DNA from: Thermoproteota archaeon
GTDB lineage: Archaea > Korarchaeota > Korarchaeia > Korarchaeales > Korarchaeaceae
Reading direction: 5' to 3'
DNA: 34,457 bases
Assembly: GCA_027491395.1 (NCBI GenBank)
Contig: JAOZFI010000018.1
Span: forward strand, 1-34,457
Shown here: positions 3,210 through 13,046 of the stretch, one piece after another
Layout of the letters: the number at the start of each line of letters is the position of its first letter
Numbering within the stretch: the first letter of the stretch is position 1
Program-made: the position numbers and the translations under genes
Notes under the pieces: generated by a model
Database searches by the model: none
Told to the model about the DNA's origin: nothing
The model's input: the letters and a program-made list of their open reading frames with translations, nothing else

Positions 3210-4094
3210 TTAGTCATGGGCCCTCTCCGGTAGGTGCTCACTCTCCCTACCACCTAGGGTGAGGCACCGGAGCACGCACCACCTCTCCTCCCGGGCCCTC
3301 AGTCCTAGACAGATGAGCAGCCCAAGCGGGAAGATCGCGCCCCAGTAGTGGTACTTGACCACCTCCCAATGCGACTCAGCTATCCTCTCCATGGCGTTAC
3401 CGAAGCTGTCCGCATCCCTCACATTCACAAAAGTGCCTCCCGTCATTTCCGCCATCTTCACATACAGGGGCCTGACCGGTATCTTCCTCCCCGTCGGAAT
3501 TCCCTCGAAAGACGGTCCTCCCTCTATTCCCCCTCCGCCTAAGACCTCCTCTATGTATAGAGGGATCATTACGGATATCACATCGATCCTCACCCTCCTG
3601 CCGCTGTGGATCCAGAGGTCCTCAGCCGCCATCAAGGCGTCTCCACCGCAGTACTCGACACCGTCGGTTATGAGCACCACATGGTACTCCCTACCCTCCA
3701 ATGTAACGTTCCGGAGCAGCTTGTCAGCGAACCTCAGGGCTCCTGCTATGGGAGCCTGGTTCTTCGGCTCCACCCTACTGACCGCGCTCATCAGCTCTTC
3801 AGGAGGACTTCCCAGTGGGAGCTCCAGTCTTATGTCGTCACAGTCGTAGAAGACGATAAGGCCGACCCTGTCTTCCCCTCCCAGGGAGCTGGAGAAGCGG
3901 GAGATCGCCAGCTTAGCGGCCTCCATTTTGGATGTATTCGTACTGATGGAGAGCGGATCCTTCATGCTGATGGATGCGTCCAAGATCAGGAGGAAAGAGC
4001 GAGGTGGTTGGAGGTAGCTGACCGTGACGACGATGAACACCCACACCACGAAGAGGATCACCAAGGTCCTCAGCAGACATTCCCTAAGCCCCAT
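3210..4094 (-). CDS. Membrane-anchored von Willebrand factor A (vWA) protein
   Basis: The 294-residue protein has a transmembrane helix at about residues 8-28, a vWA domain at 33-230 and a second helix at about 245-265. This topology puts the vWA domain outside and both short tails inside, or the reverse. The metal-site (MIDAS) signature DASIS is at 39-43 and the later ITDG aspartate is at 144. The usual MIDAS threonine position is alanine (QAPIAGAL, A114), so metal binding may be altered. The start is ATG 4094, with GGAGGG seven bases upstream. It follows the tubulin-like membrane protein gene by 81 bases on the same strand, probably in one operon. vWA proteins have been described beside divergent FtsZ-like proteins in a proposed membrane-remodelling system. 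Confidence 0.88.
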   Translation of the reverse strand: MGLRECLLRTLVILFVVWVFIVVTVSYLQPPRSFLLILDASISMKDPLSISTNTSKMEAAKLAISRFSSSLGGEDRVGLIVFYDCDDIRLELPLGSPPEELMSAVSRVEPKNQAPIAGALRFADKLLRNVTLEGREYHVVLITDGVEYCGGDALMAAEDLWIHSGRRVRIDVISVMIPLYIEEVLGGGGIEGGPSFEGIPTGRKIPVRPLYVKMAEMTGGTFVNVRDADSFGNAMERIAESHWEVVKYHYWGAIFPLGLLICLGLRAREERWCVLRCLTLGGRESEHLPERAHD

Positions 4095-4175
4095 CTTTAT
4101 CCCTCCCCGTTGGAACTGAAGGGATGGATGTCGTTCAACTCCAGTCCGGAGATGATCACGGCCATGATCAGCGGC

Positions 4176-6290
4176 CTATGCGAGGTTTGAATCGAGTAAC
4201 CAACGATCCCCCCTCCCGAGCCTCCTCTCCAGTTCACCCTTGGCCGCCCAGAGGTACATGCAATCACGAGGCCCTCTCATTAGGAGGAGTCCCCACGCCC
4301 TCTCCTCCCCATCGAATCCAGCCATGGAGTTGAGCAGCGTCATGGCGGCCATGTCTTTCAGGTTGTCAGGCGATGGCGCCTGCATGCAGGCCTCCGGATC
4401 GAGCATCGAAAGGCCGATGGTCCCGAAGGGGTCGACCCTCTCGGGATGACTTAACAGCTTCCCCAAAGTTGAGGCGGACAGCCTGAAGGAGGGATCGCCT
4501 CTCCTGTCGGAGCTGATGACGAGATCGAGTGCGATGGTCAGTTCGTCTAGAAAAGCCTCAACCGATTCCTCCATAGTCTCTCCCAGTGAAAGGGCTCTTT
4601 CCACATCTGCTAGAAGCACCACGTTGCTTCTCTTTCCCATCTCCCTAAGGGCGCCGTCTAGGCCCTCGCGCCTCGACGAGGAGAACATCACCAGTGATAT
4701 GAGGGGCACATCCAGAACCCTCACTTCATTGAGGATTGATGCAAGGGACCCCATCAGGCCGGGTCTGACGGCATCGACCAAGAGAAACGCTAGATCAGGA
4801 GGGTGTCCGCACCTCCACACCACATACTCCGCGAGAGACACGATATTTCTCCTGACTTCCCCTGCGGGGCCAGTGGTTGGATCGATTCTCAGCCTGAGCC
4901 TGCTGCCCGGTCTGAACTCCTTCAGCCCTTCCTCGAGCTGGGAGATGTTCCATGCGGAGTTGAGAGCCCTGTCCTCATGAGAGATCGCAATACCGAAGAC
5001 CTCTAGGGGCGACTGGGCCTCTCTCCGTGTTGGGATCCCTTTCCTCACCGAGAGAATGCAGAGGCAGGGTTCCTTCACCTTCCTAATCCTCCTCAGGAGT
5101 AACAGGACTATCAAGGCTCCAGTGACTGGTGAGCCGAGGTTCAAGCCCACTAACGGCTCTAGAGGGGATATTGGAAGTCCCAGAATGGGTGAGAAGCTGG
5201 ATACGAAGCTCAAGGCCGCTTGAACTACTGTGTAGGTCCCGGCAGCGGTGAACAGCGGTGCGGCCAGGTCCCACCTCCTATCCCTAGACAGGTACTCGGA
5301 TATGATGCCCGCGACCAGTCCGGCCAGCAGGGACAGAACGGGTATTGTAATTGCCGGGAGCAGCAGCGAGCTGTACCTCAGCTCGAATATGTAGGAGGTA
5401 AGGGTTGATGCTATGGCGCCTCCCGTGGCCATAGAGACCAAGAGCATCATGATGAGTCTCCTCTTCACCGAGATCCAGCTCTCCAGAATCAGAACCTCGG
5501 GTAACGCCGCCCTGAACTCCCTGAGGAGCCAGATCACTAACCCCGTCAGGGACCCGTAGCTCCCGAGGAGGAGGATTATTATCTCTTCCTCAAGCATCCC
5601 CGTCAAGGAGATGCTGAAAGGGAGCTGCAGGTGGGGAAGCATCAGGTAGAGATAGTCGAGGAGGAATGCAGCTCCCAGACCGGACACGTAAGTGAGATAT
5701 ACTCCGAGAAGGGATCTCACGACCTCGTCAGACGGCTGATCCGTGAAGTCCTTTCCGAAGAACAGGAGAGCGTGGAGGATAGAGGAGGGAACGGAGGAGA
5801 GGAGGAGGAATTTCAGGTATATGGACGGAGTTGATGGATCGAACGCCGCTAGCCTGATCGCTCCCAGAGCTAAGCCGATCATGCCGGCCAGTAGCATGAA
5901 GAGGAGGGGCTCGTACCACCTCGCCACCCTTCCCCTGGGGATCGCTCGCTGATAGACCTCTGCCACCGCCCTTATCTCCTCGTCCTCAGGCTCAACCCTA
6001 AGCTCACCCCTGACCTCTGGGAAGATAAGGCCTCTCTTCTTGGGTATCACCCTCAGCCTGTGGATTCCGGGGGCTAGTTTCTCCACTAGGGTTTCGCTCT
6101 CCCCGAGGAATGTATCGTCGAGCTCGTAGGATGCTCTGAGCCTCTCCCTCCTCCCAGAATCGTCCACGTAGTAGGTCTCTAGGATGAGCTTAGCACCCCT
6201 CTCCAATAAGGACGATCTCTTGACAGTGGATATGAGCCTCTCAGCTAGCCTCACTCCGAGATCTTCGACCCCGATAAGGATCGTCCTCAA
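4176..6290 (-). CDS. Polytopic membrane protein with degenerate FtsZ/CetZ-like domain
   Basis: The protein has 704 residues. Residues 1-22 (RTILIGVEDLGVRLAERLI) resemble strand 1-helix 1 of FtsZ/tubulins. A soluble beta-rich segment (to about 115) follows, then six to eight membrane helices (about 125-400). Residues 430-704 then track the FtsZ/CetZ order: VFGIAISHEDRALNS at the FtsZ N-T-D strand, PDLAFLLVDA where FtsZ has its glycine-rich GTP loop, and DVPLISLVMFSSSRREGLDGA like the T5 strand with the 'PFSFEG' region. Then come VVLLADVERALSLG like the 'IPNDKLL' segment, and GLLLMRGPRD like the last strand of CetZ proteins. The GGGTGTG loop is replaced by VRPGLMGS, so GTPase activity is doubtful. 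The start is TTG 6290. Homology is my inference from reading the sequence; the alternative is an unknown membrane family. Confidence 0.7.
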   Translation of the reverse strand: MRTILIGVEDLGVRLAERLISTVKRSSLLERGAKLILETYYVDDSGRRERLRASYELDDTFLGESETLVEKLAPGIHRLRVIPKKRGLIFPEVRGELRVEPEDEEIRAVAEVYQRAIPRGRVARWYEPLLFMLLAGMIGLALGAIRLAAFDPSTPSIYLKFLLLSSVPSSILHALLFFGKDFTDQPSDEVVRSLLGVYLTYVSGLGAAFLLDYLYLMLPHLQLPFSISLTGMLEEEIIILLLGSYGSLTGLVIWLLREFRAALPEVLILESWISVKRRLIMMLLVSMATGGAIASTLTSYIFELRYSSLLLPAITIPVLSLLAGLVAGIISEYLSRDRRWDLAAPLFTAAGTYTVVQAALSFVSSFSPILGLPISPLEPLVGLNLGSPVTGALIVLLLLRRIRKVKEPCLCILSVRKGIPTRREAQSPLEVFGIAISHEDRALNSAWNISQLEEGLKEFRPGSRLRLRIDPTTGPAGEVRRNIVSLAEYVVWRCGHPPDLAFLLVDAVRPGLMGSLASILNEVRVLDVPLISLVMFSSSRREGLDGALREMGKRSNVVLLADVERALSLGETMEESVEAFLDELTIALDLVISSDRRGDPSFRLSASTLGKLLSHPERVDPFGTIGLSMLDPEACMQAPSPDNLKDMAAMTLLNSMAGFDGEERAWGLLLMRGPRDCMYLWAAKGELERRLGRGDRWLLDSNLA

Positions 6291-8218: not shown

Positions 8219-9727
8219 ATGGGCTTTATCGCTGAAGTCGAGAGGGAAGTTGAGAGGGCCTCTAGACTACTTGGCTTGGAGATTAGGAGGAGTGTCCCCA
8301 AGCGGATGAGAGTAGTCGAGGATCTTCCCAGCAATGGGTGCACTCGTAGGGAAGGCGACGCCCTCCTAGTATCCGCCAAATTGGCTGGGGACGTGCTCCC
8401 GTATGTATTGGCGAAGGAAGCTGCGATCTCTCTAATGGTGCCAGAGGTGGATGAGGTCCCCCAGGTTCATGACTTGGCGTGGATATACTCTTCAGCCCCC
8501 AGAGAACTCTGGGAGAGGTGTAGAATCCCGCCTGGGAGCCCATTTCACGATTATGATCCCTACAGGCTTTTCTCCTTGGTCCCCTCTAAGGAGAGGAACA
8601 AGGTGCTCGGAACCATCATCAGGATAGTGAACGCCTCGGCTAGGCTGGGCAACTTAGAGTTCCCGATGTACATGGCTCTCCTCTACAAGATCGTCGGTTC
8701 TAGCGTTGGTCTCTCTGACTCTGACGTGAAGCTGATCCGGATAATCTCAGAGAATCCACGCGCCACCTCTGACTACATCAGGAGGAGGGGTATGGGAGGA
8801 TCCTCCTTGACGAAGTCCATGGGGAAGTTGAGGGCTCTGAGGATGATATCCGGTCCAGAGAACGTGGATTATCTTAAACTAGGGCTGTCTACCCTTCTGA
8901 TATCGTTCTCCAACCGAAAGGAGTGCAGAAAGGCTTTATGGAGGTTTCCGTACACGCGCAGCATGCTGGTACCTGTGTCGAGCGAGATCGACGCCTATGC
9001 ATACCTCTCATACCCGTATGAAGGGATGGAGGATCTGCTCTCGCTTCGGAACCTTGGATTGGTTGTATTCCTAGTTAAGGAAACCCTCCTGAGATTCAAT
9101 TTCGACCCCGTCAGGGACCCATTCGAGGCGATAAATCTGGCCACCCCTCAAGAGTTTGGAGAAAAGGCGGAGTTCATTGCCACCTCGTCTCCACCTGTCC
9201 GAGTTGATGAGCTCGATTTGGACGTGCTTAATTTCGTCCTCGAGGAGGGAAAGGTGTCTGCCACTATCCTGACCAAGAAGGGGGTTCCGGAAGCTAGGTC
9301 CAGGCTCAGAAAGCTGAGGGGGGCCGGAATCATTACCAGTCTCTATCGGTTGACGTTTCCCATGGGCGTGGAGAAGGCGATCGTCCTAGTGGAGGGTGGG
9401 CCTAGGGAGATGGATACCCTGTTGGGGGTGCTGGGATCCGGAGGATCGGTGATGGTTCAGCACCTAGAGGGCGAGGTCTCCTACCTGATGGGCGTGCTTA
9501 TGGCCCCTCCGGAGATTAGGGGAGATATCCTCAGAGTGGTCAGGACCGTATACGGTGAAAGAGTGCTTCTGGCCGAGGATTTCGTGGACATTGAGCCGGG
9601 TTGGAGGCTCCCTACAGATCTGTGGGACGAGGGGTCGCAGAAATTCTTGTGGAGGGAACCCCTCGAGAGGTTAAAGGGTGATCTCGAGGCGTGCCTTCCT
9701 CAATCCCGGCCGATCCCACGACGATAA
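8219..9727 (+). CDS. Double Lrp-like HTH protein, paralogue A
   Basis: The 502-residue protein has three parts. Residues 1-165 are a domain of unknown fold, in which LPYVLAKEAAISLM sits where a zincin would have its HExxH helix, but no metal ligands are present. Residues 167-295 hold a helix-turn-helix (DSDVKLIRIISENPRATSDY) followed by an alpha/beta ferredoxin-like stretch. Residues 332-455 repeat that plan (ELDLDVLNFVLEEGKVSATI, then a second ferredoxin-like stretch). The tail has a conserved DIEPGWRLPTDLWDE. Two Lrp/AsnC-like HTH-plus-RAM halves in one chain suggest a pseudo-dimeric regulator. It is clearly homologous along its whole length to the next gene. Its role is unproven; control of the neighbouring membrane locus is an inference. 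Confidence 0.8.
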   Translation: MGFIAEVEREVERASRLLGLEIRRSVPKRMRVVEDLPSNGCTRREGDALLVSAKLAGDVLPYVLAKEAAISLMVPEVDEVPQVHDLAWIYSSAPRELWERCRIPPGSPFHDYDPYRLFSLVPSKERNKVLGTIIRIVNASARLGNLEFPMYMALLYKIVGSSVGLSDSDVKLIRIISENPRATSDYIRRRGMGGSSLTKSMGKLRALRMISGPENVDYLKLGLSTLLISFSNRKECRKALWRFPYTRSMLVPVSSEIDAYAYLSYPYEGMEDLLSLRNLGLVVFLVKETLLRFNFDPVRDPFEAINLATPQEFGEKAEFIATSSPPVRVDELDLDVLNFVLEEGKVSATILTKKGVPEARSRLRKLRGAGIITSLYRLTFPMGVEKAIVLVEGGPREMDTLLGVLGSGGSVMVQHLEGEVSYLMGVLMAPPEIRGDILRVVRTVYGERVLLAEDFVDIEPGWRLPTDLWDEGSQKFLWREPLERLKGDLEACLPQSRPIPRR

Positions 9728-9801
9728 GTGGTAATCACATCAGACGGGCCCGGGAACTGGTGGAGGAAAGGTAATATTGGTTGGGGAGGTTGAACAACCG
9801 A

Positions 9802-11292
9802 ATGGATCCAGTTAGTGAGCTGCACGCGAAGATCGAGGATGTCTCTAAGTCGACTGGATTGGAGATCCGCAGACCTATCCCCAAGGAGGTGAGGATCGTC
9901 GACGACGTGCCTGGGGGCAGATGCACCGGTTACGATGGAGAGGCCCTCCTCGTAGCTAGGGGAGTGGTCAAGTGGCTTCCTCAGGTCCTGAAAAAGGAGG
10001 CGGTGATCCTACATACCGTCCAGGGGGTGGATGTTGTACCTCAGGTGCACGATGTGGCTTGGTACTACTCGGGATCCCCCAAGAAGCTGTGGTTGAGGTG
10101 TAGAATTCCCCCAGAAGGTCCGTTCCATGATTACGATCCATACGAACTCCTCTCGCTCATCCAGGAGGGAGAGATGGATAGGGTCGTGGGGAACCTGCTT
10201 AAGATAGTCAACCTAGCCGCTGAGAGGGGATCCCTGGACTTCGAAACTTACGTGGCACTCCTCAACAGGATCGCTGGGATGATGGTGAGGATCACCGAGA
10301 GCGATGCCAAGATAATGGAGATCATCTCAAGGAACCCTCTGGCTACCGATAGGGAGATCAGGGGCATGGGGATAACCGGAGCCACGCTGAGCAGGTCTTT
10401 GAAGAAGCTGAGGATGCTTGGCATGATATTCGGACCCGAGAACGTGGATCACTGGAAGTTAGGTCTGACGACCCTCCTCATCACGTATCCCAACAACAGA
10501 GAGTGCAGGAAGGCCTTCTGGAGGTTTCCGTACACCTATAGCGCGTACATCCCGGTCTCATCAAAGGCGCACGTGAGGGCATATTTGTCCTACCCCTATC
10601 AGGGTCTTGATGCCCTGAGAGGCGCGCTAGATGGAAGGATCCCGCTGTATCTCGTGAAGGACGCAGCCTTCGGCCTCTCTCTCGATGCTGGGAGGAGCCC
10701 GTATGATTCGGTGGAGGAGTTGTCCAGGCCCCAGCCTAGGGGGAGGGACCTGAGCATTCTCGTGAAGAGGCCAGAGTCCAACCTCGACAGGAACGATTTG
10801 AGGATACTTAACCTAGTCTTCAAGCACGGGAAGGTCACTCACAAGCTCCTGAAGAGGGAGAGAATTCCTGATCCGAAGAAGAGGCTCGGCCGACTTAGGA
10901 AGGACGGTTACATAATCAGGATGTACTTCCACGGGATCCCCAAGGGCATGGAAAAACTCATGCTGATAGTGAGGGCCTCCCATGATGAGATGGTACCTTT
11001 CCACTCCTTCCTGAGGTCGGTTGGATCGGTACTCACCCATTACATAGAGGGGGATGACTTCGAGGGACTGCTATCTCTCCTCGTCACTAGGCCAGAAGTG
11101 AGGGGGGATCTCATTTGGGCTGTGAAGTCCGTTTACGGAGATCAACTCGTCTTGGCGGAGGATTTCTTGGATATAAGTCCCGGTTGGAGGCTCCCCATAG
11201 ATCTGTGGGACGAGGAAAGTGGGACCTTCATATGGGAGGACCCGGTCATCAGATTGGAGAGGGATCTCGAGGCCTGCTACAAAAAATTGTGA
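9802..11292 (+). CDS. Double Lrp-like HTH protein, paralogue B
   Basis: This is the tandem paralogue of the preceding gene, 496 residues long and collinear throughout. Shared blocks include GLEIRR, VPQVHD, FHDYDPY, a helix-turn-helix (ESDAKIMEIISRNPLATDRE), GPENVD, WRFPYT, YLSYPY, a second HTH (RNDLRILNLVFKHGKVTHKL) and PGWRLP.DLWDE near the end. The frame is open from TTG 9781, but ATG 9802 is chosen because it places GLEIRR exactly 18 residues from the start, as in paralogue A. A TAATATT element about 30 bases upstream (9770-9776) could be its own TATA box. The pair arose by local duplication and has diverged considerably, so it is old. Confidence 0.8.
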   Translation: MDPVSELHAKIEDVSKSTGLEIRRPIPKEVRIVDDVPGGRCTGYDGEALLVARGVVKWLPQVLKKEAVILHTVQGVDVVPQVHDVAWYYSGSPKKLWLRCRIPPEGPFHDYDPYELLSLIQEGEMDRVVGNLLKIVNLAAERGSLDFETYVALLNRIAGMMVRITESDAKIMEIISRNPLATDREIRGMGITGATLSRSLKKLRMLGMIFGPENVDHWKLGLTTLLITYPNNRECRKAFWRFPYTYSAYIPVSSKAHVRAYLSYPYQGLDALRGALDGRIPLYLVKDAAFGLSLDAGRSPYDSVEELSRPQPRGRDLSILVKRPESNLDRNDLRILNLVFKHGKVTHKLLKRERIPDPKKRLGRLRKDGYIIRMYFHGIPKGMEKLMLIVRASHDEMVPFHSFLRSVGSVLTHYIEGDDFEGLLSLLVTRPEVRGDLIWAVKSVYGDQLVLAEDFLDISPGWRLPIDLWDEESGTFIWEDPVIRLERDLEACYKKL

Positions 11293-11717: not shown

Positions 11718-13046
11718 ATGTTAGGGGGCTTCCTCAGGAAGCGTGCTGTACTGGCACTGATGAGGCTGACTGGCCGGGACTTCAGGCGGGAACTCAGGAC
11801 GATAGAGTCCATAATGCGCGGGGATATGCCATTGGAAGATTTCGTTAGAGAATCCCTGAGATCCCTCTTTGAGTACGCTAAAAAGAAGGTACCGCATTAC
11901 TCTCGGCTGTTGAGGGACTTAGAAGACCCACTAACCCATTTTGACAGGATCCCTGTCCTCAGAAGATCCTTCGTCCAGGCTCACATCGATGATCTAACCT
12001 CCACAGACATGGAAAGGATGATGGGGGTATTAACCGGGACCACTGGAGGATCAACGGCAAGGCCCATAAGGTTCTTCAGGGATGTGAGATCCTATCGCTG
12101 GAGTAAGGCCACGGAGGTCTTCTATTACAGTTGGTTCTTGGGGATAGATCTGCTGAAGGCTAAGAAAATGATCATTTGGGGCTCGGCTGCTGAACTCCTC
12201 GGTGGTATATCTCTTCTATCCAATATGACCCACATCCTTGATAGGGCAGTCTACTTCAACGCTTACCTCATAGATCAACGGTTAATTGAGAGGGTCCTGA
12301 GGAAGCTAGAGGATTACAGGCCGGACATCCTCAGGGGACTTCCTCACTTCCTAGCTGCTGTGGCTGAGTACGCCCTCAGGAGGGGGATTGGGGGTGTTCA
12401 GGCCGAAGGCTGTGATCTCGACTGGGGAAACGCTAAACAAATGGAGGAGGGAGATAATAGAGGAGGCATTCGGTAGGGTATACAATTTCTACGGGGCCAG
12501 AGAGGCCCCGTCCATAGCTGGAGAGTGCAGCGACGGGTCCCTCCACGTTTTCTCTTTCAACAACTTAGTAGAGATCCTCGACGACTCAGGTAGGAAGGCC
12601 CCGAATAGGGTGCTCGGGAACGTCGTCGTGACTCCTCTACACAACTACGCTATGCCGCTCATAAGGTACGAGATAGGCGACATGGCTAGGGCGGTTGAGA
12701 GGAGGTGCCCCTGCGGCTCCATCCTACCGAGGATGGGTAGGGTTGAGGGCAGGACCACCGAGTTCGTGGTGAGGAGGGACGGCTCCCTCTTGGGGGGCGA
12801 GTTCTTCGAGGGGGTGTTCAGGGTCGAGGGTTGGGTCAGGGAGTTCCAAGTTATCTAAGAGGATCTAGACACTCTGAGGATCCTCGTCACACCCGAGGAA
12901 GGTAAGAAAATTTCACTCTCCGCGGTTGAGGGAAGGTGAGGAAGGTACTAGGCGATGTGACCGTGAGGTGGGAGCTAGTGGACAGCGTGCCTAGACCAGC
13001 CTCGGGGAAGTTTATGTACGTGATATCGAAGGTCGATCGGACCTAG
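11718..13046 (+). pseudogene. Decayed CapK/PaaK-type AMP-forming ligase
   Basis: Pieced together, the frames give about 440 residues, the normal length for phenylacetate-CoA ligase/CapK-type adenylating enzymes. The ATP-binding loop TGTTGGSTARP, the YNFYGAREAP segment and the late IRYEIGDMA motif are all recognisable. Three lesions break it. A frameshift lies near 12386-12400, at a short G run. An in-frame TAA at 12856-12858 sits where a codon such as CAA would restore the frame (FQVI-stop-EDLDTLRI). A second frameshift lies near 12935, after which RWELVDSVPRPASGKF and the end KVDRT can be read. The native enzyme would activate a carboxylate as acyl-AMP. The start is ATG 11718. It is probably non-functional. 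Confidence 0.85.

Follow-up and report, generated by a model that had tools for sequence, protein, structure and literature searches.

A probable GTPase-dead tubulin-superfamily protein split by a membrane domain in a korarchaeal genome

The analyzed window is a stretch of 34,457 nucleotides from an archaeon with a genome of 1.7 Mb. An open reading frame (ORF) of 704 amino acids with the start codon TTG occupies positions 4179-6290 of the minus strand; the original prediction had placed it at 4176-6290 and left the strand unstated. The encoded protein, herein referred to as the pseudo-tubulin, begins with the putative strand S1 and helix H1 of a tubulin-like domain, including a degenerate T1 loop (6213..6290, residues 1-26), as located by an hhalign segment scan. 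These elements are followed by a small beta-rich domain inserted after H1 (5916..6212, residues 27-125), the strands of which were seen in a low-confidence structural model, and by a membrane domain with eight transmembrane helices predicted by a hydropathy scan (5091..5915, residues 126-400). The remainder of the tubulin-like domain, from S2/S3 to H10 and with the GTPase motifs lost, is encoded at 4179..5012 (residues 427-704). At 4208-4213 of the minus strand, the window contains a run of six G, as compared with five in a relative with 95% identity (G001), and the frame breaks here. Because of this extra G near 4208, the C-terminal tail with S9-S10 (4097..4213, also minus strand) lies in another frame, which is intact in G001 and in a further relative, G004. 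The conserved tail, IVGYSIQTSHRPLIMAVIISGLE, runs on past the frameshift to a TAA stop codon at 4097-4099.

A gene for a von Willebrand factor A (VWA) domain protein of 294 amino acids is located at 3210..4094 of the same strand (Pfam VWA_2, E = 2.7e-14). In this protein, the DxSxS MIDAS motif is intact and both ends contain a hydrophobic segment. The gene starts with an ATG 2 nt past the restored stop codon of the pseudo-tubulin gene, so the two genes probably share an operon. The VWA gene is directly downstream in three of the four genomes with the pseudo-tubulin gene, namely those of the window (G000), G001, and G004. The copy in G002 has no VWA neighbor; the product of the gene beside it (L009 874-2079) has 401 amino acids, resembles CorA weakly, and carries membrane helices in its C-terminal part. 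Elsewhere in the window, a pair of adjoining genes that look alike, each of about 500 codons, was found at 8219-9727 and 9781-11292, the second having a winged-helix (HTH_24) match and the first a weak one. The genome of the window also has two conventional FtsZ genes (FtsZ1 and FtsZ2). A tandem array of five genes for FtsZ-like GTPases was found in sister genomes (G010 L051 2592-8158, with equivalents in G005, G011, G012, and G013), and it is absent from all genomes having the pseudo-tubulin.

Outside the genome of the window, relatives of the ORF were found in only three genomes, all belonging to the same genus, most likely Korarchaeum, and no further ones were found among 394 related genomes. 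A search of genome contigs detected no relatives beyond G001 and G002, and a search of viral contigs detected none. The copy in G001, a metagenome-assembled genome, has 95% DNA identity to the window ORF, the copy in G002 has about 30% protein identity (33% over the membrane region), and G004 retains only a 3' fragment. Frameshifts were found in all three of the fuller copies but in different places: the window copy is broken at the G6 run, that of G001 by two indels, and that of G002 at a C7 tract. It is therefore uncertain whether the protein functions in these genomes. The dN/dS ratio between the window and G001 is 0.19, which is purifying selection. Over about 10 kb aligned to G001, no frame-breaking indels were found in the VWA gene or in the genes for proteins of 483, 502, and 503 amino acids. 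Additionally, two successive ORFs of 252 and 156 amino acids (11718-12858) together resemble one intact 477-aa gene of G001, and a single-base indel is located within a run of G at 12392.

Homology to the tubulin superfamily was analyzed with a family profile built from the window, G001, and G002 sequences, in which residues 1-26 were joined to residues 427-end and the window sequence was first entered with its tail restored across the one extra G. Against an archaeal tubulin/FtsZ/CetZ profile of 24 sequences, hhalign aligned 287 columns, from S1 through the final strand, with a probability of 95.7 and P = 1e-8; a combined profile of 29 sequences that was richer in CetZ gave P = 1.3e-9. For the joined construct, the values ranged from P = 1e-8 to 1e-9, with scores of 62-72 over 258-300 columns. 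With the fusion kept and the restored tail left off, P was 4.2e-8 and 9.3e-10, and the C-terminal halves exactly as read, with neither fusion nor restored tail, still gave P = 4.6e-7. True scores across all these inputs were 54-72. The maximal score was 26.6 among 200 column shuffles, as compared with 67 for the real profile, and 35.3 among 50 decoys made from random pairs of Rossmann-type TrkA_N or CbiA/ParA proteins, as compared with 62-72. The other window proteins (n = 18) reached at most 21.0, and the reversed profile 14.0.

Single sequences compared with the tubulin profile scored near background, and none above it, so the case rests on the three-sequence family, two members of which are 95% identical. 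A shallow, Korarchaeum-only FtsZ profile gave P = 0.04, and a more diverse one was needed. No relevant match to the protein or its halves was found by hmmscan against Pfam and NCBIfam. In a profile search of the PDB, chain 4b45 (named FtsZ), which we take to be Haloferax CetZ2, ranked first in the right register with a value that is non-significant alone (E = 0.13); with the whole-protein profile it ranked second (E = 0.059), after an unrelated transporter chain. In total, the profile similarity is collinear from S1 through the C-terminal domain, as expected for membership in the FtsZ/tubulin superfamily by descent. This identity is well supported, and the tubulin-superfamily homology proposed originally held up in the profile comparison and in the shuffle, decoy, and segment controls.

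The peptides quoted in the original prediction are present and occupy the places assigned to them there. In the hhalign alignments, the equivalent of the NTD strand is FGIAISHEDRALNS, that of T4 is VDAVRPGLMGS, S5/T5 is VPLISLVMFSSSRREG, S6/T6 is VVLLADVERALSL, and S8 is GLLLMRGPRD. The RGP strand had been taken for the terminal one; it proved to be S8, with S9-S10 downstream in the other frame. A column-by-column comparison bore out the predicted loss of the GTP-loop glycines. Instead of the T4 signature GGGTG[ST]G, the aligned residues are VRPGLMG, in which the last glycine alone is kept. S-H takes the place of the N-T of T2, V takes that of the N of T6, and the catalytic acid (D) of T7 is absent, being replaced by S in the window and by R in G002; the first glycine of T1 is retained. 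Since the nucleotide-binding loops and the T7 acid are absent, the protein should neither bind nor hydrolyze GTP, as judged from these motifs. Because the defining GTPase motifs are absent, it was not assigned to FtsZ, CetZ, or FtsZl1. Read from sequence, the protein is very probably a split, GTPase-dead derivative of the tubulin superfamily.

The split itself was analyzed by prepending segments to the C-terminal half. With residues 1-26, the hhalign scores for three tubulin profiles rose by 7.2, 18.0, and 19.4, while the gain never exceeded 0.6 with any of 32 other segments, each of 26 residues and drawn from the region 14-442. On their own, the first 60 residues align to residues 2-28 of CetZ (P = 1.6e-4). 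Residues 1-22 also resemble, more weakly, TrkA_N (P = 1.3e-3), a generic Rossmann start. The putative S1-H1 is non-specific by itself, and it is its join to the C-terminal half that appears specific. The degenerate T1 loop reads IGVEDLG in the window and IGVGELA in the G002 relative. The segment scan thus supports S1-H1, originally placed at residues 1-22, at residues 1-26 and, together with the helix prediction, it supports the insertion of a beta domain and membrane helices within the fold.

Six to eight membrane helices had been suggested, and eight were predicted by hydropathy, at residues 129-147, 161-179, 193-211, 237-255, 279-297, 309-327, 354-372, and 380-398. The membrane region aligns with that of the 33% identical G002 relative. 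Loop charges agree, by the positive-inside rule, with an N-in/C-in topology, by which both tubulin-like halves are predicted to be cytoplasmic; the same reading places the beta domain (27-125) in the cytoplasm. No Pfam match was found for the first 126 residues. A template-free AlphaFold model of the whole protein was made from a four-row alignment containing no tubulin, with G002 entered as unchanged pieces, and it reached a pLDDT of 40. FtsZ chains formed 34 of the 50 top PDB matches of this model, none with E ≤ 0.001, and the two top-ranked matches were an unrelated thioesterase. The model of the C-terminal half from G002 (pLDDT 35) had unrelated PDB matches with no FtsZ among them, and it was set aside.

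We consider it somewhat probable that the protein is a GTPase-dead, integral-membrane pseudo-tubulin that either provides a dock for a GTP-driven filament belonging to its own superfamily or acts as the scaffold of a membrane complex. In the mechanism that we infer, S1-H1 at the N-terminus and the remaining FtsZ/CetZ-type elements at the C-terminus, homologous by profile, would assemble on the cytoplasmic face, where the two halves should meet since the beta domain and the eight-helix domain lie between them. The product would be a non-cycling, membrane-fixed subunit. It could dock the end or the side of an FtsZ1 or FtsZ2 filament or, alternatively, scaffold a membrane complex, and the neighboring VWA protein, probably extracytoplasmic, may provide a link to the outside. 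A more specific version remains tentative: a multi-pass domain may have been gained between H1 and S2, giving a permanent, GTP-independent component of the membrane that docks or caps filaments and is connected to an extracellular VWA protein.

It is rather doubtful that the tubulin-derived domain acts entirely off filaments, as a cytoplasmic scaffold for a VWA-containing membrane-remodeling or surface complex only. Such a role would fit the VWA gene adjoining downstream in three genomes, the degenerate loops at the filament interface, and the precedent of the role proposed for FtsZl1 operons (PMC2875224), but G002 retains the protein without a VWA neighbor. Less likely still, the gene may be decaying or switched on and off by homopolymer slippage, with a protein that is non-functional in the sampled genomes. 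The frame-breaking indels in the window (G6, near 4208), in G001 (two), and in G002 (C7 tract) speak for this, as does their absence from four neighboring genes. Against it stand the dN/dS of 0.19 between the window and G001, the conservation of the tail past the frameshift, and the G-run indel in a neighboring gene (12392), which suggests a possible assembly error. The frameshifts may be due to assembly error, slippage, or recent decay. It is highly improbable that the protein instead combines a non-tubulin Rossmann-type domain, e.g., a TrkA_N-like regulator, with a membrane transporter. Although residues 1-22 resemble TrkA_N, S1-H1 agrees better with CetZ, and the C-terminal half gives P = 0.25 with TrkA and P = 0.41 with ParA/CbiA, as compared with about 1e-7 for tubulins. 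TrkA_N and CbiA/ParA were rejected as alternative families, as neither explains the C-terminal half.

Among known relatives, CetZ is approached in S1-H1, which fits CetZ best among the profiles, in the stretch after S6 (LADVERALSLGETMEES as compared with ILVDNGVFLNPGESLKEA), and in the RGP/AGPP strand. Unlike CetZ, the pseudo-tubulin has neither the GTP loops nor the T7 acid and is split by a membrane domain, and its C-terminal part alone is closer to mixed FtsZ profiles than to CetZ. VWA partners and membrane association have been reported for FtsZl1 operons (PMC2875224). Like the pseudo-tubulin, FtsZl1 is a divergent superfamily member with inserts between T1 and T4, encoded beside a VWA gene with an intact MIDAS, whereas its GGGTG(S/T)G motif is preserved and it possesses a coiled coil and a helical C-terminus (PMC2875224). 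The VWA partner in the operon is shared by G000, G001, and G004 and not by G002. No significant alignment was found between the window protein and one FtsZl1 protein. The window protein has no match to Pfam PF13809 (Tubulin_2) by hmmscan up to E = 1, and a Tubulin_2 search of the genome found nothing at the locus and only the genome's own FtsZ (E = 0.94).

The Sulfolobus SSO1376-like FtsZ-like protein, described in 2010, is reported to have its membrane helices at the N-terminus and to retain the GTP-binding motifs (PMC2875224). Compared by description only, both are divergent archaeal FtsZ-like proteins with transmembrane helices; in the window protein, the helices are predicted within the fold and the motifs are lost. 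The earlier statement that no such architecture is known should therefore be softened. In the open-access literature, where SSO1376 is the nearest case, no multi-pass insertion within the fold was found for any tubulin-family protein, which is weak evidence of absence. Misato/DML1 is likewise a distant superfamily member with extra stretches, which are thought to influence nucleotide binding and oligomerization (PMC4510148), but it is eukaryotic, has no reported membrane domain in the fold, and has another role (TCP-1 chaperone).

In the pseudo-tubulin, a fold of the cytoskeleton seems to have turned into a permanent component of the cell membrane. If so, the tubulin fold tolerates the insertion of an entire membrane domain after H1 and before S2, and selection can maintain the fold when GTP chemistry is gone. 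FtsZ is known to be anchored by separate proteins or by short amphipathic helices, as with SepF, FtsA, ZipA, and OdinFtsZ1 (PMC12583498); anchoring by a subunit from the tubulin family itself would solve the task in another way.
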